Source: a virus. From it: a DNA stretch of 41,944 nucleotides. The position numbers and the translations under genes are program-made. This document shows positions 3,097-33,500 of this stretch, one piece after another. The DNA lies in IMG/VR virus record IMGVR_UViG_3300042691_007396, positions 1-41,944 of that record. One strand, written 5' to 3'. The first letter of the stretch is position 1; the number at the start of each line of letters is the position of its first letter. Below the pieces are notes generated by a model. The model worked only from the letters and a program-made list of their open reading frames with translations. It was not told the DNA's origin and ran no database searches.

Positions 3097-3393
3097 ATGA
3101 AAGAAGCGATCTGGAGCGAAACCAGAGCGGAGATCAAGCGGCTGTATGACGCGATGCCTGATTCGCACAAGAGTCAGGCGAAAGAGATCGCCGCGTCAAA
3201 GCTCTCAGACCTGATGGCTGCGATCCGCGAAGCACAAGAAAAGTTCGACGCAGAGACCTCGACTCAGCAACAGGCGTACTGGTCGCGCCGATACATCGCA
3301 CTGCACAAGCAGCTCTTCCGAGCGATCTCAATTCAAATTCTTACCGGGTCTGTCACGGACTCGATGCGTCTGCCGCGAGATGGCGAGGCATAA
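3097..3393 (+). CDS. Hypothetical helical protein
   Basis: 98 residues from ATG 3097, preceded by an unusually G-rich leader (TAGGGTAGGGTGGGG, 3075-3089). The sequence is mostly charged helix (IKRLYDAMPDSHKSQAKEIA; LSDLMAAIREAQEKFDAETS) with no membrane segment and no cysteines. The family is not recognised. It ends right at the A-run that opens the hairpin at 3396-3421, so it is the last gene before the gene-free stretch. Confidence 0.72.
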   Translation: MKEAIWSETRAEIKRLYDAMPDSHKSQAKEIAASKLSDLMAAIREAQEKFDAETSTQQQAYWSRRYIALHKQLFRAISIQILTGSVTDSMRLPRDGEA

Positions 3394-3395
3394 AA

Positions 3396-3421
3396 AAACC
3401 CTCGTCTTTCGACGAAGGTTT
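3396..3421. terminator. Hairpin with flanking A-run, probable (bidirectional) terminator
   Basis: AAACC-C-TCGTC / GACGA-A-GGTTT forms an 11-position stem with one C/A mismatch and a TTTC loop. The A-run at 3392-3398 becomes a U-run for leftward transcription, while the rightward side has only a weak TTTCGAGTTT tail. It therefore looks stronger for the minus strand, yet follows a plus-strand gene. Confidence 0.6.
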
Positions 3422-3933
3422 CGAGTTTGATACCTCTTGTCGATTGAGGGCGCGAACCCTCGCTCGACGTGCCCGAAGTTGGAGTCTCAACTTCGTAGCG
3501 AGCCCGAAGTTGACAGACCAACTCCGGACCGAGATCAGATTTCTTCTGTTTCCATACGGAAGTCAACTCACTCGCTTCGATATTGTTGGACTCAACTTCA
3601 TGGTGATGGAGTCCGGTAATAGTTTCACAAGCAAGGCCGCGCTCCGAGACATACGAGAGGTACCCGCAAGGGGAGACCCAAAGCCCGACGAGCGAAAGCG
3701 ATGAGATCGGGACAGGGAGCTAATACTCGGCTTCGATGAATGATCTTTTGAGATCGCGATTCGACCGCTCGTTTTGTCGCCAAACCACATGGGCCGTAAT
3801 GGGCGAAGTGTATCTTGCGGGGGGCAGCTGCCGCGCTCCGCTTCGCTCGCTTGCCTGCTTGCGAGTTCGCGCTTGCAGCTCGACCTCGCCAAGCCATATC
3901 GTGAATTAAATTCAATTCAACGAGGGGTGAGCG
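3422..3933 (+). other. Gene-free, hairpin-rich region; candidate structured RNA or replication origin
   Basis: About 510 nt with no credible CDS; short frames here lack ribosome sites and end in low-complexity Arg/Ser sequence. Visible structures in order: a two-step hairpin 3439-3468 (GTCGA/TCGAC plus GAGGG/CCCTC); an 8-bp perfect hairpin 3474-3495 (CGAAGTTG/CAACTTCG); hairpin 3504-3527; GGACTC/GAGTCC around 3588-3614; overlapping GNRA hairpins 3663-3679; CCCGA/TCGGG 3684-3711 enclosing GC-GAAA-GC; GATCT/AGATC 3742-3755; and a long imperfect hairpin 3826-3880. GAAGTTG or its complement occurs four times in 3475-3599. Such density in a compact phage genome suggests a selected function. I do not recognise group I/II intron, tmRNA, RNase P or 6S signatures. 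The alternative is an origin with iterons. Confidence 0.5.
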
Positions 3934-4329
3934 ATGACGCCGCTATTCCATGCGTTCGTGCCAGGTCGTCCGATTGTGAAGAAGAACACTCAGCGAGTGA
4001 TCGGCTTCGGTAAAGCAAAGCGAGTCGTGTACTCAAGTCGATACCGATCTTGGATGCGAGTCGCTGGCGCAGCGATCAGTGAAGCTGTTAAGGCGCAAGC
4101 GTTGCGTGGCGTGCTGGATCAACCGATGCGACTGAAGATTGAATTTAGGTTAAGAGACCGCCAGGCTGAACCGGACTTATCGAATCTAATCGAAGGACCA
4201 CAAGACATGCTGAAGTCCTGCGGGGTTATACGAGACGACAAGCTGATCGTTGAGATCGAGGCGCGTAAGACGTTTGGCCACAGCGATGAAGAACTTGTCG
4301 GTACGACGATATTCTTGTACTCAGTGTGA
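3934..4329 (+). CDS. rusA: RusA-family Holliday junction resolvase
   Basis: 131 residues from ATG 3934, with GAGGGGTGA upstream. The family core is clear: an N-terminal strand/Lys-rich region (FVPGRPIVKKNTQR), then PDLSNLIEGPQDML with acidic D81 and D91, followed by GVIRDDKLIVEIEARK with D101/D102 and K112. RusA dimers cut four-way junctions symmetrically using a cluster of Asp residues and a Lys. The length fits the family (about 120-140). It is followed 18 nt later by the exonuclease and then the annealase, forming a recombination cassette that would resolve the branched concatemers those two create. Confidence 0.88.
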   Translation: MTPLFHAFVPGRPIVKKNTQRVIGFGKAKRVVYSSRYRSWMRVAGAAISEAVKAQALRGVLDQPMRLKIEFRLRDRQAEPDLSNLIEGPQDMLKSCGVIRDDKLIVEIEARKTFGHSDEELVGTTIFLYSV

Positions 4330-4347: not shown

Positions 4348-5301
4348 ATGGGGCATATCGCCTTTAACCAAGTAACACACACATTGATCGAACCGAATCG
4401 CAGACTCGTCCGAGTATCGTCGCTCGGAGATTTCCGAACGTCTCCGCGTCACTGGATACATCACCAGATCACACCGAAGGAAGAGACGCCGATGATGGCG
4501 CTCGGCTCGCAGGTTCATGCAGCCTTGCTTGAGCCAGCAAAATTCGATGAGACGTACTACGTCGCTGAAGAGACAACGCTTCCAGAAACGATTGAAGAGA
4601 TTCGTGACTGGATTCGCGCTCGAGGTGGAGAGCCGAAGGGCACGAAGAAAGAACAGGTCATCGAGATCGCACGATCCATCGACCCGATGTTCCACACGCG
4701 ATCAACGTGGCTGGCCGCAAGACAGGGTGCGCGTAAGCTCGTGAGTCGTGAAGACTGGGAGATCATCGAGAAGAGTGTGCAGTCGGTGCATCGGCATCCG
4801 TTTGCAAACAAGTTGATGTTCAATCCTGAAGATCAGTACCGAATTGAAGAGCGCATGTATGCCGACATGCCAGGCATCGACTTCACTCTCACAGGTCAGC
4901 CGGACATGGTGAACATGAGTAAGCGCCTGTGCATTGAAGTGAAACGATCATTCGCGACATCAGCGCAAGCGTTCGCTGGCCACGCCTACCGCATGGGGTA
5001 TCACGTTCAGGCTGCGGCCTACACCGAGATGCTGAGCGCGGTACATGGTGCGCCGTTTGGTTTCGTGTGGGTCGTGATCGAGGCGAATGCGCCACACTCT
5101 GTCAGCGTGTTTATGCCCGATGATGCGATGCTCGACGCTGGCCGCCTTGAACTGAAGGGCATCATGTCGCGACTGGACACCTGCCTGAAAGACGACCGAT
5201 GGCCTGGACCTGGCGGCTTTGAGATCGAGACGATTTCACTAACGTCATGGCAGCTGCAAGAAGCATTGAACGCTGGTCCTGCTGAAGAGTTCGGCGTATA
5301 A
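4348..5301 (+). CDS. PD-(D/E)XK exonuclease, RecE/DUF3799-like, with SAP-like insert
   Basis: 317 residues from ATG 4348 (AGAGGGGTGAAC upstream). RecB-type nuclease motifs are in order: GSQVH57AALLEP, E168 region, GQPD186MV, IE197VK199 and QAAAY (Q221, Y225), the QxxxY motif. These are the metal and DNA end-processing residues of the DUF3799/RecE C-terminal family, which resects 5' strands to feed an annealase. Residues about 78-112 (TIEEIRDWIRARGGEPKGTK and KEQVIEIARSI) interrupt the nuclease between motifs H57 and E168 and look like a SAP/HeH DNA-binding helix-turn-helix. It lies directly before the RecT-like gene, its expected partner. Confidence 0.85.
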   Translation: MGHIAFNQVTHTLIEPNRRLVRVSSLGDFRTSPRHWIHHQITPKEETPMMALGSQVHAALLEPAKFDETYYVAEETTLPETIEEIRDWIRARGGEPKGTKKEQVIEIARSIDPMFHTRSTWLAARQGARKLVSREDWEIIEKSVQSVHRHPFANKLMFNPEDQYRIEERMYADMPGIDFTLTGQPDMVNMSKRLCIEVKRSFATSAQAFAGHAYRMGYHVQAAAYTEMLSAVHGAPFGFVWVVIEANAPHSVSVFMPDDAMLDAGRLELKGIMSRLDTCLKDDRWPGPGGFEIETISLTSWQLQEALNAGPAEEFGV

Positions 5302-5329: not shown

Positions 5330-6070
5330 ATGTCAGATCAAGACAAGTCCGAATCTATTGAACTACAAGAATCATCGGTTCCGAGTGAGCCGCAGTCGGC
5401 TGCGCCAGCTGTGCGCGTGCAGGCCGAAGTGATCGCTGTCGATGAAGGCGGGGTTCGTCCGACGAACGTGCAGCAAATGCATCGCATGGCCGTGGCGTAC
5501 TTCAAAGCTGGCATGGTGCCGAAGTCTTTCAAGACTCCAGAGCAGGTCTTTGCCGGAATGCAATTCGCTGCCGAGCTTGGGCTTCCGATGCTGAGTGGTC
5601 TTCGTCAGATCGCAATCGTCAACGGACAGCCGTCGATCTGGGGTGATCTGCCGCTTGCTCTCGTTCGCCGCACAGGTGAGCTTGAGTTCATCAACGAGAC
5701 CCTCTTCACTGAGACTTACGATCCGATCTGCTTCGATAACAAGAACATCAACGCGCCTGCGTGGGGTGCGATGTGTAAGCTCAAGCGCCGAGGTTACGAT
5801 GCGATCGAGCGCGTGTTCACGATCGACGACGCGAAGAAGGCCGGACTGCTGTCGCGAGATAACGTGTGGCAGACCTACCCTCGTCGAATGCTCCAGATGA
5901 AAGCGCGAAGTATTGCGCTCAAGGACGTGTTCAGCGACGCGCTAATGGGTGCCGCGATTGCTGAGTATGACTTTAACGTGATGCCGTCCGAGCGAGATGT
6001 GGCTGGCGTCGGTTCCGGATCAACACAGGCAGCATTGCTTCAGTCGATCAAGGGTGAGGTGAAGCAATGA
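5330..6070 (+). CDS. recT: RecT-like single-strand annealing protein
   Basis: 246 residues from ATG 5330 (AAAGGGGTGAACG upstream). A polar, disordered-looking N-terminus of about 40 residues is followed by a conserved core: MAVAYFKAGMVPKSFKTPEQ, then GLPMLSGLRQIAIVNGQPSI and WGDLPLALVRR, then a strand-rich section (AWGAMCKLKRRGYDAIERVF) and WQTYPRRMLQMKARS. This ordering, including 'VNGxPxxWGD', is characteristic of RecT/Bet-superfamily annealases of phages. Role: coats ssDNA exposed by the upstream exonuclease and anneals homologous strands. The C-terminus is Ser/Gly/Gln-rich. The stop overlaps the ATG of the next gene (ATGA). Confidence 0.85.
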   Translation: MSDQDKSESIELQESSVPSEPQSAAPAVRVQAEVIAVDEGGVRPTNVQQMHRMAVAYFKAGMVPKSFKTPEQVFAGMQFAAELGLPMLSGLRQIAIVNGQPSIWGDLPLALVRRTGELEFINETLFTETYDPICFDNKNINAPAWGAMCKLKRRGYDAIERVFTIDDAKKAGLLSRDNVWQTYPRRMLQMKARSIALKDVFSDALMGAAIAEYDFNVMPSERDVAGVGSGSTQAALLQSIKGEVKQ

Positions 6071-6279
6071 CCACGCACGTTCATCGTGAAGAAATTAAGA
6101 ATGAACTCGAGATCGTGCGCGAGAAGTTGAAGCTCGCGCTTGAGGCTCTCGACACGCTATCAACACTTCGACCGATGAGAGATGCAGAGCGGTATCGGAT
6201 CGCAATGCAGGCGATCATGGAATGCAACGTCATCAACTTAGCTAGAGATACGAAGCGAGAGAACGAGGTGCGGGCGTGA
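6067..6279 (+). CDS. Small coiled-coil protein coupled to recT
   Basis: 70 residues from ATG 6067, overlapping the recT stop by 4 nt, with AGGTGA upstream. Residues 9-35 (IKNELEIVREKLKLALEALD onward) have heptad spacing of Leu/Ile and are likely a coiled coil. No family is recognised. The coding end supplies the GAGGTG ribosome site for the next gene, so its last residues NEVRA are dictated partly by that site. It may modulate the recombinase by context, but nothing proves it. Confidence 0.7.
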   Translation: MTTHVHREEIKNELEIVREKLKLALEALDTLSTLRPMRDAERYRIAMQAIMECNVINLARDTKRENEVRA

Positions 6280-6920
6280 AGATCATCACAGTCCCGATGA
6301 TCCTCGAATGGGGTCCATGTTACCAGCCGATAAAAGTCGTAAACGAGGACTGGTCCGGCACAGTGCTCGACGTGCTCGCGCTTGATATTCCAATCGCAGA
6401 TCGCTTTTGGGTTGTGTTACGCGAAGAGTTGCTGAGCCAAAAGATTTTGCGTCTCTTTGTAGTTCGTTGCGCCCTCGGAGTTCAATACCTGATGAGAGAT
6501 GAGCGAAGCATCAAAGTGTTGGAGGTCGCCGAGCGATTTGCGTTTGGAGAAGCGACGGATGATGAGCTTGCCGCAGCGCGGGCCGCAGCGCGGGACGCAG
6601 CGTGGGCCGCAGCAACGGACGCAGCGAGGGCCGCAGCGCGGGCCGCAATGTGGACCGCAGCAACGGACGCAGCATGGGCCGCAGCAACGGACGCAGCGCG
6701 GGACGCAGCGTGGGCCGCAGCAACGGACGCAGCGTGGGCCGCAGCGAGGGCCGCAGCGCGGGTCGCAGCAACGGACGCAGCAACGGACGCAGCAACGGAC
6801 GCAGCGTGGGCCGCAATGAGGGCCGCAGCGTGGACCGCAGCGTGGGACGCAGCAAGGTCTAAACAGCTCGAAATACTGCGCGAGTTGATCAATGAATTTC
6901 CAGAAGAGGTGCGGGCGTGA
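6276..6920 (+). CDS. Alanine-rich tetrapeptide-repeat protein (Imm5-like family of phage proteins)
   Basis: 214 residues from GTG 6276. Residues 1-98 are an ordinary globular-looking domain (FWVVLREELLSQKILRLFVV; DERSIKVLEVAERFAFGEAT); residues 99-194 are 24 consecutive four-residue units of the form [A/D/T/V]-A-[A/M]-[R/W/T]; a short helix closes the protein (KQLEILRELINEFPEEVRA). Ala-rich proteins with the same leader ('vlevAErfA.GeAt..el.aAr') occur in many phages and are often labelled putative immunity protein (Imm5-like); their function is unknown to me. The repeat would form a long helix with Trp/Arg/Asp drifting slowly round it. The 12-bp unit keeps frame when copies are gained or lost. 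Start and stop overlap both neighbours. Confidence 0.75.
   Translation: MKIITVPMILEWGPCYQPIKVVNEDWSGTVLDVLALDIPIADRFWVVLREELLSQKILRLFVVRCALGVQYLMRDERSIKVLEVAERFAFGEATDDELAAARAAARDAAWAAATDAARAAARAAMWTAATDAAWAAATDAARDAAWAAATDAAWAAARAAARVAATDAATDAATDAAWAAMRAAAWTAAWDAARSKQLEILRELINEFPEEVRA
6570..6857 (+). repeat. 24-copy 12-bp in-frame tandem repeat
   Basis: Twenty-four uninterrupted 12-bp units, of which GCCGCAGCGCGG, GACGCAGCGTGG and GACGCAGCAACG are the commonest. In each unit the second codon is always GCA; variation is concentrated in codon 1 (GCC/GAC/ACC/GTC) and codon 4 (CGG/TGG/AGG/ACG), with GCG/GCA or ATG in codon 3. The unit length leaves several other frames open on both strands, which produces many spurious long frames here. 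Confidence 0.95.
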
Positions 6921-8838: not shown

Positions 8839-9104
8839 GACACGACATGCGAGACAGAGTATGGGTCGCGCTGGATGAAGCGAAGACAGATCAGATTGAG
8901 CGAATGCGTAAGCAGATGGTCATTCTCTCAAGCCTCGCGCTTGAAGCTACGGATCACGTTAAACGTAACGGCGATGCCGATCTTGCGCGGTCACTCGAGC
9001 GAGCGATCGACGGCGCTTTGCTGTGCGCTGCAAACTCGCTCGGTAAGACCAGCGGTGTCGAGCGAATGATTCGAGACTTCGACGAAGGTCTTGACGCAAA
9101 GTAA
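8835..9104 (+). CDS. Hypothetical helical protein
   Basis: 89 residues from ATG 8835, overlapping the transglycosylase stop (ATGA) and preceded by AAAGGGGG (8823-8830). Mostly helix with an alternating charged face (ALDEAKTDQIERMRKQMVIL; SLERAIDGALLCAANSLGKT). No family is recognised. Its stop codon is two nucleotides before the hairpin that covers the ribosome site of the next small gene, so termination here may open that hairpin. Confidence 0.7.
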   Translation: MRHDMRDRVWVALDEAKTDQIERMRKQMVILSSLALEATDHVKRNGDADLARSLERAIDGALLCAANSLGKTSGVERMIRDFDEGLDAK

Positions 9105-9106
9105 TA

Positions 9107-9144
9107 GGCCCCGCAATCTGTGTTCTCACACATGAAAGGGGGCC
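9107..9144 (+). promoter_or_regulatory. Hairpin sequestering the ribosome binding site of the 19-aa peptide
   Basis: GGCCCC (9107-9112) can pair with GGGGCC (9139-9144), enclosing an inner TGTG-TTCT-CACA hairpin (9119-9130). The 3' arm contains the GGGG of AAAGGGGG, the ribosome site of the ATG at 9147. The 5' arm starts two nt after the upstream stop codon, within reach of a terminating ribosome, so coupling or autogenous control is plausible. Confidence 0.55.
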
Positions 9145-9146
9145 AC

Positions 9147-9206
9147 ATGGCAAAGAAGAAGATGACTAAGAAAGCTACCAAGAAAGCTGGCGGCAAGAAG
9201 TACTGA
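9147..9206 (+). CDS. 19-residue lysine-rich peptide
   Basis: Reads MAKKKMTKKATKKAGGKKY: ten Lys in 19 residues, behind a near-perfect ribosome site (AAAGGGGG, spacing 4-5). The strong site, the upstream hairpin and the clean stop argue for a real gene despite its size. A peptide this basic should bind nucleic acid or the acidic surface of a protein; histone-tail-like Lys/Ala peptides are found in other phages, but I know of no assigned function. It is the last plus-strand gene before the convergent junction. Confidence 0.6.
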   Translation: MAKKKMTKKATKKAGGKKY

Positions 9207-9209
9207 TCT

Positions 9210-9425
9210 TCATCGACGTGGAGATCGGCGCTTGACGATTACAGTCTCTCCGTCGATCTCCACGTTATACCCTCGCCCGCTCAGACACATCGCCGCGTTC
9301 TTGCGGTTCTCTGGGTGCTTAAGATAAATGTGCGCGACCATACCGCCAGTCGCGAGATGCTTCTCAGCCTGGTCGCACATCTTAAACACACGATCTTTCG
9401 CGATGTATCCGTCGTCGTTACCCAT
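9210..9425 (-). CDS. Hypothetical small protein, last gene of the leftward operon
   Basis: 71 residues, ATG at 9425. It carries an aromatic/charged core (HIYLKHPENRKNAAMCLSGR) and ends in a beta-like strand with a basic tail (VEIDGETVIVKRRSPRR). The stop is 4 nt from the stop of the convergent plus-strand peptide. The start overlaps the end of the upstream gene by 8 nt. No family is recognised. Its 3' end forms half of the long hairpin at 9216-9265. Confidence 0.7.
   Translation of the reverse strand: MGNDDGYIAKDRVFKMCDQAEKHLATGGMVAHIYLKHPENRKNAAMCLSGRGYNVEIDGETVIVKRRSPRR
9216..9265. terminator. Long inverted repeat at the convergent junction
   Basis: ACGTGGAGATCGGCG (9216-9230) and CGTCGATCTCCACGT (9251-9265) form a 15-bp stem with one GU pair and a 20-nt loop, the outer 12 bp being perfect. 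It sits just past the end of the plus-strand operon and inside the last codons of the minus-strand gene. No T-run follows on either side, so it may pause polymerase or stabilise 3' ends rather than act as a classic terminator. Confidence 0.6.
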
Positions 9426-9783
9426 TCACAAGCACCGATGTTAGACGAACTTTCTTCTCTGTTGCCAAGTCAGACGACATGATGAGCACGATCAGATCGG
9501 CGATGTCTTGCTCGCGACCAGTGCGCTCGACTCGAGTCACCTTTGGCATATCGGCGGTCGCCTTGCGACGACGCCTGCGTGGTGTCGTTCCGTCCGAGTT
9601 CTTCTTATACCCGCCAAGATTATACATGCCGCCGTCTGTGTATCGCCCTGTGCGAGTAAGCTGCGGCCATGTCTTGTTCGCGATCTCCGCAATCTCGCGA
9701 AACTTCAAGCCACCTCGTCGCATTTCTCGGATGATCTTCTTCGCCTGTGTTCTTGTCTCTGGAATATCGAATGTCTGTTCCAC
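9418..9783 (-). CDS. HTH-like basic protein, putative DNA-binding regulator
   Basis: 121 residues, start at 9783. Residues about 14-50 (IIREMRRGGLKFREIAEIAN onward) look like a resolvase/sigma-type helix-turn-helix: 'G-x-x-[FY]-R-E-I-A-x-x-x'. A polybasic linker follows (TTPRRRRRKAT), then a helical C-terminal domain (REQDIADLIVLIMSSDLATE). The arrangement suggests a small DNA-binding regulator with a separate oligomerisation part; this is inference. It lies downstream of the ribbon-helix-helix gene in the same operon. Confidence 0.65.
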   Translation of the reverse strand: MEQTFDIPETRTQAKKIIREMRRGGLKFREIAEIANKTWPQLTRTGRYTDGGMYNLGGYKKNSDGTTPRRRRRKATADMPKVTRVERTGREQDIADLIVLIMSSDLATEKKVRLTSVLVNG

Positions 9784-9795
9784 CCAACTCTCCTC

Positions 9796-9972
9796 TTACT
9801 TGGTTAAGCGCATTCTCTGCGCATGTTCGATCAGTGCGTCACGAACGACAGCACTGAGGTTTACTCGTTTCTCTTTCAGCTCTTTCACGATCTCGACATC
9901 AACCCACGCCTGAAGCAGCTGCTTCCCTGCGCGTGCCTTGGACTTTGATCGCGTTACTCGCTTCTTCTTCAT
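9796..9972 (-). CDS. Ribbon-helix-helix (Arc/CopG-type) DNA-binding protein
   Basis: 58 residues from ATG 9972, which overlaps the upstream stop (ATGA) behind GGAGAA; GTG 9984 would add four residues. A Lys/Arg-rich leader (MKKKRVTRSKSKARAGK) precedes the RHH core: strand QLLQAWVDVEI, then helix VKELKEKR, then VNLSAVVRDALIEHAQRM, where 'N-x-S-x-x-V-R-x-A-L' is the conserved helix-turn-helix. RHH proteins bind short repeated operator half-sites as dimers of dimers and commonly autoregulate. The CTTACAT repeats upstream of this operon (11572-11605) are a natural candidate operator. Confidence 0.78.
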   Translation of the reverse strand: MKKKRVTRSKSKARAGKQLLQAWVDVEIVKELKEKRVNLSAVVRDALIEHAQRMRLTK

Positions 9973-10304
9973 GGGTTTCTCCACTGTGATTTTAAGATTG
10001 CTCTCGCGTCATACAGGTAGGAATCAACTCGACTTCGGCTTCTCGGATTATCTTCGTGAATGTACTCTTCGCACTGATCCAAGATGTCGAGCACCTCATC
10101 AATATGGCGCAGAGCTTTTCGTTCGCGCCGACGGGCATTCTCGATCAGCGCAAGCGCGTGGAAGATAATCACAGTCAACGCACAGAAGAACGCGGTTCTC
10201 CAGTTTACGCCGGACAAGGCTACCAAGATCGGCCACGCCACCGCGTACACCACAAGCTCGTGAAGGAAGTACCGCAAGATGTAATCGGACACAGGGCTTC
10301 TCAT
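9969..10304 (-). CDS. Small membrane protein with cytoplasmic coiled-coil tail
   Basis: 111 residues from ATG 10304, with GAGGTGA upstream; the longer frame from 10334 would overlap its neighbour without a ribosome site. Two hydrophobic stretches at about residues 10-33 (LRYFLHELVVYAVAWPILVA) and 37-56 (WRTAFFCALTVIIFHALALI) look like a membrane hairpin. A highly charged tail follows (NARRRERKALRHIDEVLDIL). No family is recognised. Small membrane proteins in early phage operons often alter the host envelope or exclude other phages, but that is only context. Confidence 0.7.
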   Translation of the reverse strand: MRSPVSDYILRYFLHELVVYAVAWPILVALSGVNWRTAFFCALTVIIFHALALIENARRRERKALRHIDEVLDILDQCEEYIHEDNPRSRSRVDSYLYDARAILKSQWRNP

Positions 10305-10540
10305 GACTTCACCTCGCCATACTTTCCAGCACACTCTCGCGAACAGAACGCATACATCGAGAACTCACCACACGCACACTCGGTCTCAACACGCACGATC
10401 TTGTCGGGCGCGACGCGCCAGAACACACACGCTTTACCTGTGGCCGTGAACGCATCAGGCGCAAACGCGACATAGCGGTCGCCGCCAGCGTGAGTCAGGC
10501 GGTACTTTCGTTGAACGTCGGTCGTCGGATATAGCTTCAT
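10301..10540 (-). CDS. Small cysteine-containing protein, possible zinc-binding
   Basis: 79 residues from ATG 10540 (GAGGGTGAACT upstream). The N-terminal half is strand-like (TTDVQRKYRLTHAGGDRYVA); the C-terminal quarter has ECACGEFSMYAFCSRECAGK, with four Cys in C-x-C and C-x3-C arrangement that could form a small treble-clef-like zinc site. The overlap with the next gene (ATGA) implies coupling. The function is unknown; a protein-protein or nucleic-acid zinc ribbon is the simplest guess. Confidence 0.68.
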   Translation of the reverse strand: MKLYPTTDVQRKYRLTHAGGDRYVAFAPDAFTATGKACVFWRVAPDKIVRVETECACGEFSMYAFCSRECAGKYGEVKS

Positions 10541-10549
10541 AGTTCACCC

Positions 10550-10756
10550 TCAATTCTGCACGCGAACCGAACACTCGTTCGATCCGTCTTTGCGCAAGTA
10601 TAAAGTCCAGGACCGCGAAGAGTCCTGGCTCACTTCAGTCATCGTGTAGCAGTTCACAGCATCAGGACCACAACACTGAGTCAAGGCGTCCACGCGCGGC
10701 TGCTCGCCGCACGCAGACAGCAACGCCAGAGAGATCAATGCGAGCGCGTAGTTCAT
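10550..10756 (-). CDS. Small lipoprotein
   Basis: 68 residues from ATG 10756. Signal MNYALALISLALLSACGEQ has a hydrophobic core and lipobox LSAC, with lipidation expected at Cys17. The mature part is short and cysteine-containing (LTQCCGPDAVNCYTMTEVSQ, then a late Cys near the end), suggesting disulfides in the periplasm. Short phage lipoproteins of this kind can block receptors and prevent superinfection (Llp of phage T5 is the known precedent), but sequence similarity to those was not visible. The ATG overlaps the stop of the upstream gene. Confidence 0.68.
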   Translation of the reverse strand: MNYALALISLALLSACGEQPRVDALTQCCGPDAVNCYTMTEVSQDSSRSWTLYLRKDGSNECSVRVQN

Positions 10757-10998
10757 GGTTCCACCTTCTTCGTTGGGGTATCGAATGCAGTCCACATGTC
10801 CTGCATAAAGGCGCGGCCAGCGCCATGCTCGGCGCACCAGGCCACGCAGTAGGCAAAGTAATCTCGAGCCGCAGCCTCGCCCATGTGCGCCTTAATGCGA
10901 GGACGGCGGGGCACTACACCCCGCACGAGATCGCGAAACTCTTCGTCGGTCATGCCGTCTGGTGGCTTGACCCCGACCTTAAAGCGATTGGAACGCAT
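10753..10998 (-). CDS. Hypothetical protein
   Basis: 81 residues, ATG 10998, overlapping the upstream stop (TAATG) and itself overlapping the lipoprotein start. A basic N-terminus (MRSNRFKVGVKPPDGMTDEE) is followed by helix-rich sequence with aromatic and two Cys residues (ARDYFAYCVAWCAEHGAGRA). No family is recognised; the CVAWC pair might bind metal or be redox-active, though nothing else supports it. Confidence 0.66.
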   Translation of the reverse strand: MRSNRFKVGVKPPDGMTDEEFRDLVRGVVPRRPRIKAHMGEAAARDYFAYCVAWCAEHGAGRAFMQDMWTAFDTPTKKVEP

Positions 10999-11243
10999 TA
11001 CGTCACATCCTTAAAAACAAGAAGATCGTAAACCCTAAAGGATTCAAAAGTTTCCTTAATCATTTGCTCGTCTTGCGAATCTAGCGACAGGCGCAACGCA
11101 TGTAATATGGAAAGAGTCTCAGCCACGCCTTCGATGTCGTCTGACCCGTAGTACGCCATAAGGTCTTTTTCGTCGTCGTTGATTCTCTCTGCGGTAGCTT
11201 CTCGATCAATTATGCAGTTCGTCTTTGTATTCGTTCGCATCAT
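10998..11243 (-). CDS. Small acidic protein, tandem paralogue of 11240-11485
   Basis: 81 residues from ATG 11243 (ATG 11240 also possible). It shares with the neighbouring upstream gene the N-terminal motif [NI]-x-I-I-[DN]-R-E-A-T, an acidic middle (ERINDDEKDLMAYYGSDDIE), and a C-terminal 'YDLLVFKD' against 'VDLLVKEK'. The two are diverged tandem copies. Strongly negative charge and small size are typical of inhibitory or DNA-mimic phage proteins, but no known inhibitor family is recognised. Confidence 0.7.
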   Translation of the reverse strand: MMRTNTKTNCIIDREATAERINDDEKDLMAYYGSDDIEGVAETLSILHALRLSLDSQDEQMIKETFESFRVYDLLVFKDVT

Positions 11244-11485
11244 ACCGACTTCTCTTTGACGAGCAGATCAACTAGACCAATGTACTGAGCGAACTCGAGA
11301 AGCTGCGCATCGGAAACCGAGCGGTCTTTGCATCGCTCTTGGAGATCGCAAAGCTCGTCCATGTACTCAGCCGCACCCTCATCTTCACTGGACTCAAACT
11401 GAATCTCGTCGATCGCGTCGGCAATCGCAGCACTGGTCGCCTCGCGGTTAATGATGATCGACTTATTTCGATTGGTTAAATTCAT
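11240..11485 (-). CDS. Small acidic protein, tandem paralogue of 10998-11243
   Basis: 81 residues from ATG 11485, behind GAGGTGGCGT; the longer frame from 11497 begins inside that site. Motifs: NKSIIINREATSAAIADAID, an acidic run (FESSEDEGAAEYMDELCDLQ), and a C-terminal LVDLLVKEKSV. It overlaps its downstream copy by 4 nt (ATGA-type). It is among the first genes of the leftward operon, so it should be expressed early. The function is unknown. Confidence 0.7.
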   Translation of the reverse strand: MNLTNRNKSIIINREATSAAIADAIDEIQFESSEDEGAAEYMDELCDLQERCKDRSVSDAQLLEFAQYIGLVDLLVKEKSV

Positions 11486-11493
11486 ACGCCACC

Positions 11494-11568
11494 TCACTTC
11501 TTAATGGTTAAGAGACACAAGAGCAGGGAGAGCAGACCGATCTGAGCTAACACTATTAAAATAATCAT
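11494..11568 (-). CDS. Possible 24-aa hydrophobic peptide at the operon start
   Basis: ATG 11568 to TGA 11494 reads MIILIVLAQIGLLSLLLCLL and ends TIKK: one complete membrane span with a short basic end. No good ribosome site precedes it, only a purine-poor TAAGTATAAGTAC. It ends 9 nt before the next gene. Leader or mini-membrane peptides like this are known in phages, but this one may be chance. Confidence 0.35.
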   Translation of the reverse strand: MIILIVLAQIGLLSLLLCLLTIKK

Positions 11569-11571
11569 GTA

Positions 11572-11605
11572 CTTATACTTACATATCCTTACATGTAAGT
11601 AAAGA
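11572..11605. promoter_or_regulatory. Candidate operator: CTTACAT direct repeats and 12-bp palindrome
   Basis: In the divergent intergenic region, CTTACAT occurs at 11578-11584 and 11588-11594, exactly 10 bp (one helical turn) apart, with a related CTTATAC at 11572. The second copy is half of the perfect palindrome CTTACATGTAAG (11588-11599). This is the spacing favoured by RHH-type dimers, and such a protein is encoded in the leftward operon. No convincing -35/-10 pair was found for the leftward promoter. Confidence 0.55.
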
Positions 11606-11666
11606 ACACCAGCGATCCGGATCGAGCACCACGCCAAATCGAATATATGCGCCGCGTAGTCTAGTT

Positions 11667-11695
11667 TTGAGGCGTGGTATTGGAAACAATACAAA
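11667..11695 (+). promoter_or_regulatory. Possible sigma70-type promoter for the rightward late region
   Basis: TTGAGG (11667-11672) and TACAAA (11690-11695) are separated by 17 bp, each matching four of six consensus bases. Transcription would start about 15 nt before the ATG at 11717, leaving a short leader without a clear ribosome site. The match is weak. Confidence 0.35.
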
Positions 11696-11716
11696 AGCTG
11701 TCAACAATCTCGACAG

Positions 11717-12658
11717 ATGACGAGTCACGATCTTGTCGCCGAACTGATCCGCCTCGCCCAAGAACTCCAGCGCATACCGCTGAGAGACGAATTCGTGTCT
11801 CGCATTAAAGGCGGGCGCGGCATGGTCGATAAACATTTCGGCTCATACCGCACACTGCTTCAAGCCGCAGGTCTGGCCGACGCTCGACGCATCGACAATT
11901 CAGTGTTTGAGCGCGACATCGAGCGTCACCTCGAGCAACACAGGCCGATTACGCTGCCGGATGTTCACGATTACGAATCGACATTGTTCATTCCAGATGT
12001 TCACTTTCCTTTCGAACATGCCGATACCCTCGCGCAGATATATGAGTTTGCTGAAAGGCATCAGCCAAAAAACATCGTGCAGCTTGGTGATCTCTACGAC
12101 ATGTACTCACACGCTAAATTCCCGCGATCACACAATGTCTTCACGCCTCGCGAAGAGTTCAGCACCTCACGAAAGAAGGCCGAGCTATTTTGGAAAACAC
12201 TTCGCCTTAAAGCACCGAAGGCTCGATGCGTACAAATCACTGGTAACCATTGCGTGCGTCCGGTTAAACGAATTATCGAAGTGTACCCAGAAGCGGAAGA
12301 TTGGATTGTCGAAATCGTTGAGAAAATGATGACGTTTGATGGGGTCGAGTCGATCACCGACCCACGTCAGGAATTGATTTTACCTGGCAACATTTGCGTC
12401 ATCCACGGCTACCGCTCAAACCTCGGAGCGCATCGCGATTACACAATGATGAATGTGGTCTGTGGCCACACCCACAGGGGCGGCGTAGTGTATCGACAGG
12501 TTCGCGGCGAAATAATCTGGGAGTTAAACGCAGGTCTTGCTGGCGATGCAACAGCCAAAGGTTTGAGCTACACGTCACAGCGAGTCGTCGACTGGACCTT
12601 GGGGTGGGGTTACCTCGACGAGTATGGACCACGTTTCATTCCGGCGAGGGGCAAATGA
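11717..12658 (+). CDS. Calcineurin-like metallophosphoesterase with N-terminal HNR-type domain
   Basis: 313 residues. Residues about 5-53 (LVAELIRLAQELQRIPLRDE ... RTLLQAAGL) match the homing-endonuclease-associated repeat (HNH_repeat/HNR), a small putative DNA-binding module. From about residue 88 the metallophosphoesterase motifs follow in order: IPD94VH96, GD125LYD128, GN177H178, VIH230G and GH251TH253, the ligands of a dinuclear metal site. The full set implies an active enzyme. Substrate is unknown: nucleic-acid ends, nucleotides or phosphoprotein. It is the first gene of the rightward region, lacks a strong ribosome site, and its stop overlaps the next ATG. A domain fusion that targets the phosphoesterase to DNA is an attractive reading. 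Confidence 0.83.
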   Translation: MTSHDLVAELIRLAQELQRIPLRDEFVSRIKGGRGMVDKHFGSYRTLLQAAGLADARRIDNSVFERDIERHLEQHRPITLPDVHDYESTLFIPDVHFPFEHADTLAQIYEFAERHQPKNIVQLGDLYDMYSHAKFPRSHNVFTPREEFSTSRKKAELFWKTLRLKAPKARCVQITGNHCVRPVKRIIEVYPEAEDWIVEIVEKMMTFDGVESITDPRQELILPGNICVIHGYRSNLGAHRDYTMMNVVCGHTHRGGVVYRQVRGEIIWELNAGLAGDATAKGLSYTSQRVVDWTLGWGYLDEYGPRFIPARGK

Positions 12659-12888
12659 AGATCGTCGAAGTTCAATGGGTCGACGCTCAGTCGAGCGATG
12701 AATGGCAAACAGTCGCACACGCCACAGCCGACGAGCTGCCGATCATCACCACAGTCGGATACCTGCTGAGGCACGATAAGACCACGATCTCCGTGGCCAT
12801 GCAGCTCGACACCAAGAACGACAAGACCAGCATGGTGATGACCATACCTTCGTCATGGATCAAGAAGCTGAGAACTCTCAGACGTTGA
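12655..12888 (+). CDS. Small beta-rich protein, unknown
   Basis: 77 residues from ATG 12655, with GAGGGG upstream and a 4-nt overlap with the phosphoesterase stop. Alternating strands (MKIVEVQWVDAQSSDEWQTV; TTVGYLLRHDKTTISVAMQL) ending in a basic helix (SSWIKKLRTLRR). Small proteins of this pattern, a beta-sheet with 'T-x-G-[YF]-L-[VI/L]', are common in phages, with unknown function. No catalytic motif is visible. Confidence 0.72.
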   Translation: MKIVEVQWVDAQSSDEWQTVAHATADELPIITTVGYLLRHDKTTISVAMQLDTKNDKTSMVMTIPSSWIKKLRTLRR

Positions 12889-12919
12889 CGCACGCACTCA
12901 GCTTTGCAAGCCTTCACAC

Positions 12920-13186
12920 ATGGCAGACCTGAAATACGGCGACATTCCATCCATCATCGCTCAACTCGAAGGCAAGAACTCCGAAACACACATCGACAAC
13001 ATTCGTGAAATCCTCGCGCTGATCGCAAAGCTCGAGGCCGTGTACCGATACCAAGTCTTTGAGCGATCCGGTGATGAAGCAGACTTGCGCAAGATGTCGA
13101 AGGTCTTGCGGGCAATCGGCATTCGAGCCACACTCGTCGCACAGAAACACGCAAAGAAACAGAAGCCCAAGAAGGACCAGGCATGA
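12920..13186 (+). CDS. Hypothetical helical protein upstream of terminase small subunit
   Basis: 88 residues from ATG 12920, without an obvious ribosome site. Helical, charged sequence (IDNIREILALIAKLEAVYRY) ending in a Lys-rich tail (QKHAKKQKPKKDQA) that could bind nucleic acid. It overlaps the small terminase start by 4 nt. The position suggests an auxiliary packaging or DNA-binding role, by context only. Confidence 0.68.
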   Translation: MADLKYGDIPSIIAQLEGKNSETHIDNIREILALIAKLEAVYRYQVFERSGDEADLRKMSKVLRAIGIRATLVAQKHAKKQKPKKDQA

Positions 13187-19633: not shown

Positions 19634-20500
19634 GTGGCTGGATTCACTGGCTTCCGAGCGATCAAGGATTCGATGCAGTCAGACGGCAAGTTCTGGCACG
19701 CATCGTTTCGTAAGGTCGTCTCGAACGCCACTGTCGCCGGAGTGTGGTGCGATCTTTCGTACTCGCCTGGCAATCCGCCCGCGAACTTTTATGCGACTGA
19801 GCCTTTGGTGTCGGCCACGCTGTCGGCCACGAAGGGAATTGATAACGGCGGTTCGGTTTCGCCGGATCGCAAATTCGTGAAAAAACTCTTGGTGTACTCG
19901 CCAAGTACCGCATTTCAGTCAAGCACGCTGATGCTTTGTGATTACCTGCTGTATTATCCGTTTATCGACGGCGACGATACAGCAACACAGACATTCACAA
20001 ACAGCGTGAGCCTGTCGCGCTCTACTGATGGCAAAGGCGTTCAGGCAATGCTTGTGAGTCAGGGTTCATACACTGGCAACGTCACGTTTCAGATTCAATA
20101 CACGAATCAAGACGGCACCACAGGTTGTGTATCGCCACTCGTGACCACAAACACGGCAGCTCTTGCGGCAACAATCGTGAACTCTGGTACTCAGGTCGAC
20201 GGCTCTGGTCCGTTTATTCCGCTGCAATCTGGCGACTACGGCATCAGATCTGTAGAGTCGATCACGTTCACATCACCAAACGGCGGCATCTTATCGCTGG
20301 TCTTGGTGAAGCCTTTGTTTGAGATCGGCATCGAAGAAGTGACGGCGACATTCAACACGCCATCGCAGCTTGAGAACTTTTACGATCAGATGAACGGCGC
20401 GGTCATTGAAGACGGCGCGTACTTAAATTTTATTTGCTTACCAAACGCGAGTCTTTCGGCAGCAGTGCTGAGCGGAATGCTCGTCACCACATGGAGATGA
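19634..20500 (+). CDS. Virion surface protein, first of a tandem pair
   Basis: 288 residues from GTG 19634. Beta-rich with long Ser/Thr/Gly stretches. Shared with its neighbour in the same order: 'GKFWHASFRKVVSNATVAGVWCDLS' region, 'LLYYPFIDGDDTATQTFTNS' followed by SLSRS, and GPFIPLQSGDYGIRSVESIT. I recall proteins with this opening ('dgKfw.a.f.Kv......ag.WyDLs...G.Pva') next to capsid genes in various podoviruses and siphoviruses, usually labelled hypothetical or structural. Probably a decoration or head-fibre protein. The start is supported only by a weak GGATTGAT. Confidence 0.75.
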   Translation: MAGFTGFRAIKDSMQSDGKFWHASFRKVVSNATVAGVWCDLSYSPGNPPANFYATEPLVSATLSATKGIDNGGSVSPDRKFVKKLLVYSPSTAFQSSTLMLCDYLLYYPFIDGDDTATQTFTNSVSLSRSTDGKGVQAMLVSQGSYTGNVTFQIQYTNQDGTTGCVSPLVTTNTAALAATIVNSGTQVDGSGPFIPLQSGDYGIRSVESITFTSPNGGILSLVLVKPLFEIGIEEVTATFNTPSQLENFYDQMNGAVIEDGAYLNFICLPNASLSAAVLSGMLVTTWR

Positions 20501-20501
20501 T

Positions 20502-21383
20502 ATGGGCTTCTCATCGCTTGATGATCTGGTTTCTGAGCTGACAGCTGGCAAACGATGGCGAGCTGACTTCAACAAGACTGTGGCCAACGGCGCTTATGTC
20601 GCTGGTGCATGGTACGATCTCTCAATCTTGTCCGGTTCGCCCGTAGCCAACACATACACAGGCACCGCACTGACATCACAAGTCCCGACCGAGACGACAG
20701 GGTGGGGCATTTATCACGGCGGCAACGTCAGCTTAGACACAAAGCATTTGCTCAAAGCTGTGGCAGTCAGCAACACAGCGACGGCATCACCTGGAACACT
20801 GCTGCTTGTCGATACGCTTCTGTATTATCCAGGCATCTCGTCGACATCTGCGTCTCTTCAAACGCTCACGAACTCTTCATCGCTGTCGCGGTACACGACT
20901 GGCCAGGGAAACAGAATGTACCTTGTGCATACTGTTGCGTCTGGTACGAACACCCCGACAGTGGCGATGAGCTACACGCGCCAGAACACTGGCGGAACTG
21001 ACACGGGTCGGGCGCTTGGTGCTACGACTGCGTTTGTTGCGTCGGTTGGTATTGGTCGATTCCCGCATTCAGGTACAGCGGCAAACAATCGTGGTCCATT
21101 CTTGCCGCTTCAGTCTGGTGATACAGGCGTGCAGTCGGTGCAGTCTGTGACAGTGACGACGCCACACGCGACCACTGGTACGATGTGCTTGGTGATCTGC
21201 CAACCTCTCGTTGAGATTCCGCTGACGACGGCAAACGTGCCTGTGATCGTGGACTTCTTAAGCGCAGTTCCGAGTCTTCCACAGATTCAGGACGGCGCAT
21301 GTTTGAACCTTCTTTATCAGCCAGCAGGTGCCGCAGCCAACGGCTCGATCATCTCTGGATCACTCGAATTTGTGTGGGGGTAA
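20502..21383 (+). CDS. Virion surface protein, second of a tandem pair
   Basis: 293 residues from ATG 20502, starting one nt after its paralogue's stop. Aligned elements: GKRWRADFNKTVANGAYVAG, LLYYPGISSTSASLQTLTNS with SLSRYTTG, and GPFLPLQSGDTGVQSVQSVT. Identity is concentrated at these three islands and low elsewhere, so the duplication is old. Two diverged copies could assemble as a hetero-oligomer or decorate different capsid positions. Ends with a beta strand GSIISGSLEFVWG like the ILS...GMLVTTWR end of the first copy. Confidence 0.76.
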   Translation: MGFSSLDDLVSELTAGKRWRADFNKTVANGAYVAGAWYDLSILSGSPVANTYTGTALTSQVPTETTGWGIYHGGNVSLDTKHLLKAVAVSNTATASPGTLLLVDTLLYYPGISSTSASLQTLTNSSSLSRYTTGQGNRMYLVHTVASGTNTPTVAMSYTRQNTGGTDTGRALGATTAFVASVGIGRFPHSGTAANNRGPFLPLQSGDTGVQSVQSVTVTTPHATTGTMCLVICQPLVEIPLTTANVPVIVDFLSAVPSLPQIQDGACLNLLYQPAGAAANGSIISGSLEFVWG

Positions 21384-28744: not shown

Positions 28745-30508
28745 ATGCCAGTAGTTCGTTATGAACGACAGGTCGCTCCAGCAGGGCAGCCAAACCTTCA
28801 GGTCAATCCGTCGTCGCCAGCAGAGGCATTCGGCGGTGGCCAGATTACTGAGAACACTTTTGGCGCAGCTCAACGGCTCGCATCGACCGCGTATCAGTAT
28901 GCCGCTGAAGAGAAGCGCAACACCGACGAGATTCAAACTCTGGACGCGATCAACAAGCTGAAGGCAGAGAAGAACGATCTGCTCATGCATTACGAGCGAG
29001 GATTCCTTAATCGTCGTGGCCGCAATGCATTTGAAGGTCGCGATACGACGATCGGTGAGTTCGAGAAGAAGCGCGGCGAGATCATGGAGACGCTCGCGAA
29101 CGATGCTCAGAAACAGGCGTTTCTGCGGTATGCGTACAACGAGCAGGCATCGGTCATTGAAGATGTCGATCGCCATGTGTTTCGCGAGCGCGAGAAGTTC
29201 GACCAAGAGACGACCGATGCGTCGCTCAAAATGTTCTATAACGACGCGATCAATAACTACCAATACCCGCAGCGCCTTAAGGCTGCGATGGATGCGCAGC
29301 TTGCTGTGGTGATGGATCACGCTCGTCGCACTGGCAAGTCAGACCAGTGGCTCATTCAGCAGACTGGTGAGATTACGTCTCGCACGAATGCAGCAATCAT
29401 CGAGCGAATGCTGGCCAACGGCGAAGACCGCAGTGCCGAGGCATTTTATAAACAGAACGAGAGCCGCATCATCGCAAGCGAAAAAGCACAGATCGAGAAG
29501 GCGCTCGAGGTAGGTCGGATGCGTGGCGACTCGCAGCGCATCACCGACCGATTACTTGGACAGTACGACAATTTGAACGACGCACGCGACGCGATGAAGC
29601 AGATGCTTGGTGGCGATCCTAAGCTGCGTGACGAAGTTGATTCACGGCTTCAGCGCGAGTTCTCTTTGCGAGACCAGCAGCGTGAGGCGCAGTCTGAGAT
29701 GATGTTCTTAAATGCGTATAACCTTCTTCAGAAAAATAACAGCCTCGACGATATTCCGCCGACAATGATGGGCCGCCTATCGCCGTCGCAGCAAGAACAG
29801 CTTCGTCGGATCAGCAAGACACCTTCGGCTGAGAAGGATAACGAGGCTGTGTACTTAAAGTACCGCTCGATGCCGTACCTCGATCTAGCAAAGTTGAAAG
29901 AGAGCGAGATCGTATCACTTCGCCCGAAGCTCACAGAATCTTCGTGGAAGGAGATTGTTCGTCGTCGTGCCGAGGCAAAGGACGCGATGAAGAGTGGTAG
30001 CAAAGAGAAGGTCGAGAAGTTCGACGGACTTCGCACCGAGCAGGATTTGGTTGACGATGGTCTCGTCGCATCTGGTGCTTTGAAGTGGAATCAAGTAAAG
30101 GCCGCAAGGTCAGGACGCGACAACACGGCAGCCGAGAAACTGTCGACGTTTGAGAAGGCGATCGAGCAGCGATGGCGTGAAGAGTACGAGGCGACGGGTA
30201 AGAGTCCGAGTATGAAGCGCAAGCAAGAGCTGGTCGATGAGATTGTGAAGCAGCAGGTCTTTGTTGCTCCGCGATTCTTCGGTTCGCCAGAACAGAAGTC
30301 GGTGATCGCTTTGAGTGAAGCTGAGCGCAATCGTGCATTCGTTAAGGTCGATGAGATTCCGCCGCGTCAACGCTTGCAGCTTGCGAACTATCTGACTTCG
30401 CTTGGAATCAGCACGACAACAGAGAACCTTGAACGAGCATACGGCCAGATGGTCGTGGGTGGCCGCTCAGGTCTCGATACTTGGATCAAGAACAACAGGG
30501 GTCGATAA
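28745..30508 (+). CDS. Internal virion (ejection-type) protein, medium
   Basis: 587 residues from ATG 28745 with GAGGT upstream; the longer frame from 28712 lies within the preceding gene. Mostly alpha-helical and charged, with TYP-free N-terminus VRYERQVAPAGQPNLQVNPS, then LASTAYQYAAEEKRNTDEIQ, RGFLNRRGRNAFEGRDTTIG and KQAFLRYAYNEQASVIEDVD. This 'eG.nA......' region occurs in many gp15-like or second ejection proteins. No enzymatic motif is visible. The stop overlaps the giant gene ATG (TAATG). It probably packs inside the capsid with the small and giant proteins. Confidence 0.78.
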   Translation: MPVVRYERQVAPAGQPNLQVNPSSPAEAFGGGQITENTFGAAQRLASTAYQYAAEEKRNTDEIQTLDAINKLKAEKNDLLMHYERGFLNRRGRNAFEGRDTTIGEFEKKRGEIMETLANDAQKQAFLRYAYNEQASVIEDVDRHVFREREKFDQETTDASLKMFYNDAINNYQYPQRLKAAMDAQLAVVMDHARRTGKSDQWLIQQTGEITSRTNAAIIERMLANGEDRSAEAFYKQNESRIIASEKAQIEKALEVGRMRGDSQRITDRLLGQYDNLNDARDAMKQMLGGDPKLRDEVDSRLQREFSLRDQQREAQSEMMFLNAYNLLQKNNSLDDIPPTMMGRLSPSQQEQLRRISKTPSAEKDNEAVYLKYRSMPYLDLAKLKESEIVSLRPKLTESSWKEIVRRRAEAKDAMKSGSKEKVEKFDGLRTEQDLVDDGLVASGALKWNQVKAARSGRDNTAAEKLSTFEKAIEQRWREEYEATGKSPSMKRKQELVDEIVKQQVFVAPRFFGSPEQKSVIALSEAERNRAFVKVDEIPPRQRLQLANYLTSLGISTTTENLERAYGQMVVGGRSGLDTWIKNNRGR

Positions 30509-33500
30509 TGGTCTTGAACGACAGCGAGTTTGATTCTCTTCTCGGCGGCGCTGAGTCGCCAACACTGATCGACCAGCCGTCACCTGTGCCTGAGCCCGAA
30601 GCTGCGCCAGCGCCAGGTCGTCCAACGCTGTCGGATGATGACTTCGATTCCGCGCTTACTGGTCGGCCAGACGCAAACCGCGTCGGTCTTTCGATGAAAT
30701 ATGGCCAGGAAATTGAGCCTGATCGCGCAGCGAAGGTGCTCGACATCCAGCGCAAGACCGGAATGCCGCTCGATTTTGTTGAGCGAAACGTCGACGATCT
30801 CGAGAAGCAGGTCACTCAAAGTCAGTTCAGGCCAGACGAGTTAGCTCGCGAGTACCCGAAGTCTGCGTCGATGATCGCCGAGCATCCGACGAAGGCGGCG
30901 TTGATCCGCGACGACATCGAGCTACTGAAGCGCATCGAAGATGCAGATCGGCAGCATGGCTTCTGGCGTGGCGTCGCTCGCTCTGCTGGCGTCGGTTTAA
31001 TGAACATCTACCAGGGTATCGCAAAGATTCCAGCTCAAGCCTACGACATCGCAGCGATGCCACAGAACGCGCTGTTCAAGGCAATGGGTCGCGAAGACCT
31101 ACTCGTCGAATCTCCAGAGTGGGCGCGAAAGAATGCGTTCACAGAGTACTATCGCCAGTCTGCCGAGGCGCAACAGCAATTGGTTCCGGACTTGAACAAG
31201 TCTGTGACAGAGCAGGCGCTCAACGGAAACTTCAGCGGTGCCGCTCGCACGTTTGCGATGCAGCTCTCTCAGCAGGCGCCTCAGTTCTTGATGATGTATA
31301 TGGGCGGGGCAGCAGGTCTGGCAAACCAGACGGCGGCTGGTGCTGGTCTCATGCAGGCCGCAGAGACCGCAGAGCGTGGCCGTGAGGCTGGTCTTGATCC
31401 GTTCGAGGCGCAGATCGCAGCAGTCACTCAAGGCTCAGCAGAGGCGCTGTTTGAGCGCATGGGCACGATGGCCATTGTCGAGCGATGGGGTACTGCGCTT
31501 GCTCAACGAACGAGCAAAGAAACCGCGCTTCGGATCATGGCCGACACAGGTAAGGTGATCGCAGCGAACGCAGGCCAAGAGGGTTTGGAAGAAGCCGCGA
31601 CATCTGCGGTTCAGTCGGCGTCGGACTTCGCGTCTGGCATCAATCCGAACATGACATTTACAGAGGCGCTGCTTCGTGGTGCCGACGCGTTCGTTCTTGG
31701 CGCAGGTATGGGTGGCTCGGCTGGATCGGTCGGTGCTATTCCAGGCATAACGTATCGCACAGAGTCGTATCGTGCGGCAGTGCAAGATCGGAACTTTTAT
31801 CTCGCACTGATGGACGGCGTTGAATCGTCTCGCGCACGCGCACGTCTGCCCGAAGCCACGCGAGAAATCGTGGCTAAGATCACAGAGAATGGTGCGGCTG
31901 AGAATTTGTACATCGCACCAGAGGACATCAAAGAATACTTTCAATCGAAGAACATCGACCCCGATGTGGGTGCGGCACAGCTCGGCATTCAGGTCGAGTA
32001 CCGCGAGGCGCTCGAGACTGGACAAGACATTAAGGTCAAGACCGCAGACTGGGCAGCGAAGGTCGCAGGCACAGAGGATTCCAAGGCTCTCGCTGAAGTC
32101 ATCAAGTTCTCGCCTGATGGCGTGACGCCTAAGCAAGCTCGCGAAGAGGACACGAAGGTTCAGCAGCTTCTTGAGGAAGCGGATCGCAACGCGACTGCCG
32201 AAGCGAAGGAATCTGCTGACGAGGTGAAGAAGGTCATCAGCGAGCAGCTTGTGGCAGCAGGTTACACGTCGGCAGACGCAAACGCGAATGCTGAACTCTG
32301 GCGTCGCACATTCCTGTACTTCTCATCTCAAGACACGAAGGGTCGCACACCACGACAGCTTCTCGATCAGTACGGCGCACGCATACGTCGAGTTAACGAC
32401 ACAGATGTCGTGATTCCGCCGACGCAAGGCTTCGTGTCGCAGCAGTCGGCCACACCTCTGATCGCTCGACATAATTTGACTGAAGGCAATCTGCTCCACG
32501 CGATCTCGATTGGTGGGCTGCCTGTGCCGTCGCTTGCGATTGCGCCGCTTGATTTTCCGATGGAGAACTTCGGCGAGATCACACTTGTCGCTCCGAGCGA
32601 GTTGATCGACCCACGATCCGGTCAAGGTGCGCGAGTGTTTGGTGCAGACGTGTACTCGCCTCGGTATCCAAGCGTTGAGTACTCGTTTACATCGGCGGCT
32701 GAAGCTCGGCTCAGTAAACTTGTGGCTGAGCAAGAGAAGGTGTTTGGCCGTGGTATTGACCGCGATGAGATTCGTCGCGAAGGGCCAGCGGCGCTTGAGA
32801 ATAACGTCGTATTCATGGCGACGTTTTTAGCTGGCAAGGGTGTCACTCCGAACATTGAGATGGACACACCTAACCAAGAAAAACTCGATGAGCTGAAGAA
32901 GTTCGGCCTCGATAAGTACTTCGGTCAAACGCAGTACGATCTTCAAATTGATGCGGCATTCTTAACCGACGCAAATCGCTTCTGGGAGTCGGTACTATCT
33001 GACATGCCGGATTTGCTTGAGAGCTTCCGAGCTGATCCAGGGAGACGTATTCGGCAGCTTGCTCAAGATGTCGCCGTGGTCGGTGAGAAGGTGCTGAATC
33101 CATCGCCGGATGCTTATGGTTCGCGCAACAATCTTCGCGACCAGATCAAAGAACTTGGCCTTCAGAATGAGTTCGTCATGGAAACTCAGCGCGTCGTTAA
33201 AGACGTGCTAAAGGCCAAAGAGCGAATTTTTGTTGATTACACAGAAGATGGAGATCGCAAGTACGTCGGTCACACATTGAAGAACGTCGTGCGTATGATG
33301 TCGAAGAACATCCGTGGCGGCGAAGGTTTCTCGTATGGTGCGGGCAGTGTTCGTGCTCTGGTCACACCTGAATTCCGATCATTGTCTGGTATTCGTGCCG
33401 CGAAAGATCGCATCGTCAAGCCAGAGGTGTTCGCCGATCTGAAGGAAGAAGTAAACACAGAGCTTGCATCACTGCTGTCGCGCCTTGGATCAAAGACCGG

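Follow-up and report, generated by a model that had tools for sequence, protein, structure and literature searches.

A predicted leftward small RNA at the edge of the longest gene-free gap in a podovirus-like phage genome

The gene-free gap and its surroundings

The window analysed here is the whole 41,944-base virus record IMGVR_UViG_3300042691_007396, in which bases 1-69 are identical to bases 41876-41944, and given this exact direct repeat of 69 nt at its two ends it probably represents a complete genome. Its longest non-coding gap (positions 3394-3933, 540 nt; the next longest measure 316 and 291 nt) is bordered on the left by a 98-aa gene ending at 3393 and on the right by the start of a RusA-like resolvase gene at 3934. 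The resolvase gene (3934-4329) is followed on the plus strand by genes for an exonuclease VIII-like protein (4348-5301) and a RecT-like annealing protein (5330-6070), all three recognised by PHROG hits and sharing the ribosome binding site (RBS) AGGGGTGA. Near-identical sites of the form GGGGTGA(A/G)C ahead of ATG, unlike those of most of the genome, occur at the genes starting at 2727, 3934, 4348 and 5330, and perhaps mark an early regulon.

An earlier sequence-only reading had described positions 3422-3933 as lacking any credible coding sequence, and this description is borne out. In a codon model trained on 29 genes of the same genome, each left out in turn, all open reading frames (ORFs) in the gap scored negative (-0.02 to -0.37), compared with +0.10 to +0.33 for the 29 known genes; none matched Pfam or PHROG, and none carried the strong RBS seen at the RusA, exonuclease and RecT genes. 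One frame (3444-3704, or 3513-3704 from an internal start) was somewhat protein-like, but its codon score fell below that of every known gene and no relative was found, so it was set aside.

The same reading had offered a replication origin as an alternative, which the data speak against: GC skew is positive throughout the first 9 kb with no turning point at the gap, and a search of the gap for initiator-type direct-repeat arrays (iterons) returned only two short two-copy families. The absence of a tmRNA signature that it had reported was confirmed with ARAGORN, which found neither a tmRNA nor any tRNA in the genome.

Folding and terminators at the left edge of the gap

The region had also been portrayed as packed with hairpins, with at least eight inverted repeats and several GNRA-type loops. 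Simple hairpins are in fact no commoner there than in shuffled sequence: counting perfect stems of at least 5 bp with loops of 3-12 nt gave five where shuffled sequence gave 4.0 +/- 1.6, and as many occur in 59 of 162 genome windows of the same size. GNRA hairpins are likewise at chance level, with two on the plus strand and one on the minus strand where 1.1 are expected.

All of the excess structure is found at the left edge, at 3386-3532, and is far stronger on the minus strand than on the plus strand. The minus strand of 3384-3535 folds at -80.0 kcal/mol, compared with -46.3 +/- 4.1 kcal/mol in shuffles (z -8.24, with none of 200 shuffles as good), and an almost identical interval on the plus strand reaches z -3.8. 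In a genome-wide folding scan the minus strand of 3376-3525 ranked first among 558 windows, and it also ranked first among 11,412 window-strands over ten genomes (this one and nine related ones) in a scan that used a regression version of the score rather than shuffles. Scored against proper shuffles, structured gaps in two of the relatives, G002 and G031, reached z values of only about -2 to -3; neither resembles the block described here. The region thus does hold a structural outlier, but it is confined to about 145 nt of the minus strand, and since it begins about 30 nt to the left of 3422, an interval starting at that position cuts off its terminator.

The structured block (3386-3532, minus strand) comprises three hairpins over about 140 nt up to the terminator, each of which, folded alone on the minus strand, is more stable than all 200 of its shuffles. 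Hairpin 1 (3471-3529) has a long imperfect stem, with 12 bp, a small bubble and 9 bp, closed by a 9-nt loop; it is built of two copies of a palindrome with 8-bp arms (3474-3495 and 3505-3526), and folded alone gives z -6.4 on the minus strand and -4.3 on the plus strand. Hairpin 2 (3439-3468) consists of 5 bp, a 2x2 internal loop and 6 bp (z -4.3 alone on the minus strand), and is separated from the terminator by a linker (3423-3438) that in a longer fold can pair with sequence past the terminator. Six G-U pairs occur in the minus-strand fold, which correspond to A-C on the plus strand, compared with one in the plus-strand fold, and this asymmetry is modest evidence, about 6 to 1, for selection acting on the minus strand.

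The third hairpin belongs to an intrinsic terminator on the minus strand (3392-3422), with the stem AAACCTTCGTC-GAAA-GACGAGGGTTT running from 3422 to 3395, followed by a seven-U run ending at 3392, and a folding energy of -15.6 kcal/mol. The U tract shares bases with the TAA stop codon that ends the upstream gene on the plus strand. A terminator scan of the genome returned only two strong examples outside genes, this leftward one and a rightward one at 2629-2654 behind an endolysin-like gene. From the leftward terminator to about 9.2 kb, that is over 5.8 kb upstream of it, no minus-strand gene is apparent, and its simplest purpose would therefore be to end a leftward transcript begun in the gap. 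Similar terminator hairpins with a GAAA loop and a U tract are present in proteobacterial genomes.

A candidate leftward RNA and competing readings

Because the block is, on the minus strand, the strongest folding outlier of this genome and nine relatives, carries a leftward seven-U terminator without an apparent gene to serve and holds no coding frame, we favour the reading that the gap encodes a small non-coding RNA on the minus strand, which we predict from sequence features to be about 140 nt long and regard as somewhat probable; possibly it is longer, if transcription starts nearer to RusA. From its 5' end, the order of elements would be the long imperfect hairpin, the second hairpin, the short linker and the Rho-independent terminator, which at 3392-3422 on the minus strand supplies the 3' end typical of a small RNA; we infer transcription from these elements. 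Of the claim of an undescribed phage RNA, a structured RNA accordingly stands as likely, but as minus-strand hairpins of about 145 nt at one end and not as an ornate RNA of 510 nt.

The remainder of the gap (3533-3933) has no excess structure and is assigned to neither strand. It would serve as promoter DNA for both the leftward RNA and the rightward RusA-exonuclease-RecT operon, and is presumed to hold their promoters, none of which was recognised. A search of 3300-4000 for a minus-strand promoter found none that was sigma-70-like, a consensus that may not be that of the host, and 66 of 300 random genome segments likewise lacked one. A look-alike of a T7-like promoter, TAATACTCGG at 3721, occurs as a single copy and was dropped. 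At 3902-3914, 8 bp ahead of the RusA RBS, lies an AT-rich palindrome, TGAATTAAATTCA, a possible promoter or operator element.

If made, the predicted RNA is antisense to every rightward transcript that leads out of the gap into the RusA-exonuclease-RecT genes, and it would overlap the leader of that operon. Most likely it would act in cis: a rightward transcript that crosses the region would carry an untranslated leader with full complementarity to the RNA. The loops of the RNA would pair with this leader, and either cleavage of the duplex, by RNase III for instance, or refolding of the leader would damp or time expression of the recombination genes. Given that the leftward RNA exists, antisense control of the recombination operon is a tentative but reasonable proposal; the fuller claim, of an orphan antisense RNA in a podovirus-like phage group that tunes its own RusA/exonuclease/RecT operon via a long leader, is rather unlikely. 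A search for trans targets of the RNA within the phage gave none better than background.

The block could instead be a transcriptional insulator that separates the lysis genes from the recombination operon, merely stopping stray transcripts (leftward ones and, more weakly, rightward ones) and releasing no functional RNA. Terminators are often present at phage boundaries, this one adjoins the stop codon of a plus-strand gene, and its hairpin folds on the plus strand too (z -2.9). Against this, the U tract on the plus strand is poor (TTTCGAGTTT), the 5.8 kb upstream contain no known leftward gene that requires a terminator, and the two extra stable hairpins ahead of it would be unneeded, and we consider an insulator unlikely. 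In another reading, at the DNA level, the two copies of CGAAGTTG-N6-CAACTTCG, at 3474 and 3505, are operators for a phage regulator of early promoters, and the RNA hairpin arises incidentally from the duplication of the palindrome. The palindrome is unique to this place in the genome (two sites at three or fewer mismatches, against 0.28 expected), it sits in the presumed promoter region, and the start-to-start distance of 31 bp is about three helical turns. Such operators would account for hairpin 1 only, leaving hairpin 2 and the terminator aside; moreover, the imperfect positions are not random but form G-U pairs on the minus strand, and a search for a repressor-like gene identified none, which makes this reading improbable.

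The remaining alternative is a structured rightward 5' leader of the RusA-exonuclease-RecT mRNA acting as an attenuator or an RNase III processing site. RNase III processing sites are found at T7 early junctions, and the form of hairpin 1, a bubble in a long stem, is that of RNase III sites; the recombination genes lie downstream, and the plus strand of the block folds above chance (z about -4). Yet the minus strand folds far better, the U-rich terminator tract is on the minus strand, and the roughly 400 nt that separate the block from RusA are unstructured. With a plus strand that folds less well than the minus strand, we hold the long leader suggested by the sequence-only reading to be very improbable.

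Relation to known RNAs and to other phages

In its layout the candidate recalls lambda OOP, a leftward antisense RNA that ends at the terminator tO, overlaps the coding end of cII by 52 bases and acts on cII (PMC5869508). Both are small leftward phage RNAs with an intrinsic terminator at the end, lying opposite to early rightward genes. The candidate is, however, longer and has three hairpins, the DNA that it overlaps is untranslated except for one stop codon, whereas OOP overlaps the coding end of cII, and its target is inferred; the likeness is one of layout, with no sequence relation claimed. As regards assignment to an OOP-like class, the opposite strand is indicated by the terminator and the fold, and any overlap with the RusA-operon transcript depends on where that transcript starts. 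Further cis-antisense RNAs of phages include P22 sar, lambda aQ and PAK_P4as15, which are treated in the portion of PMC12197685 drawn on here and resemble the candidate in being non-coding RNAs opposite phage genes that are proposed to damp them. None of those described in that portion concerns a RusA/exonuclease/RecT operon, and no homology to them was found.

The large ornate RNAs GOLLD, ROOL and OLE are of a different kind, with many GOLLD RNAs exceeding 800 nt, extensive structure supported by covariation and, for GOLLD, frequent proximity to tRNAs, some of these RNAs being found in phages and prophages (PMC12286853). Like them the candidate is non-coding, but it consists of about 145 nt of plain hairpins in a genome with no tRNA. 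The proposed comparison with the Rfam models reached no family at gathering score over the whole window, GOLLD and ROOL included; at E values up to 10, hits in the interval 3300-4050 were limited to two of 17 bits, BTnc231 and Phe_leader, both over the terminator and neither credible. The earlier proposal of a 510-nt ornate RNA is not upheld, as only about 145 nt are structured, in plain consecutive hairpins on the opposite strand and without an Rfam family, and the extensive structure of such RNAs is missing from 3530-3933, which folds like its shuffles (z -0.66 on the plus strand and -0.45 on the minus strand).

No homologue of the candidate was found in the viral, phage, plasmid, genome or Rfam collections searched. 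Comparison of the region with phages and plasmids by blastn gave nothing, and when the terminator and hairpins 1 and 2 were sought in viral and genome contigs as exact or degenerate DNA patterns, no match turned up either. The covariance model R1, a weak model built from a single sequence, matched only the region itself and, in other genomes, plain terminators, which were rejected as homologues. The early region of this genome is divergent from all relatives that were reached, and this, together with the weakness of a single-sequence model, limits the force of these negatives. The element would be an orphan of a known kind, an intrinsically terminated small RNA, with no membership by descent claimed. 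In uncultured phages hardly any non-coding RNAs have been annotated. The present case shows that a thermodynamic outlier, taken together with an orphan terminator, can point to a small RNA and to the strand that encodes it even without a homologue, and it singles out a phage recombination operon that antisense control may target.

The relatives themselves were reached through the portal, one of the head genes, which are podovirus-like. The portal is 41-65% identical to portals in about 50 environmental contigs and identical to that of three further short contigs, related portals are also present in mostly proteobacterial genomes and metagenome-assembled genomes, and the terminase large subunit shares 46% identity with Xanthomonas CP2-like phages. 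In the 53 contigs reached via the portal, the early regions differ and the gap region is absent, and searching viral contigs with the exonuclease, RusA, RecT and the gene at 3097 yielded no relatives.

Elsewhere in the genome, GC skew turns negative at 9000-13000, where several short ORFs on the minus strand, none belonging to a known family, form a leftward module. The gene at 6276-6920 (PHROG 18326, function unknown) contains at least 19 head-to-tail 12-nt units at 6516-6879, encoding repeats rich in Ala, Trp, Arg, Thr and Asp. The neighbouring genes at 19634-20500 and 20502-21383, apparently tandem paralogues without a PHROG match, match the same proteins of relatives, and positions 30481-40446 encode a polyvalent protein of 3321 aa with PBECR5 nuclease-like and LPD22 domains.
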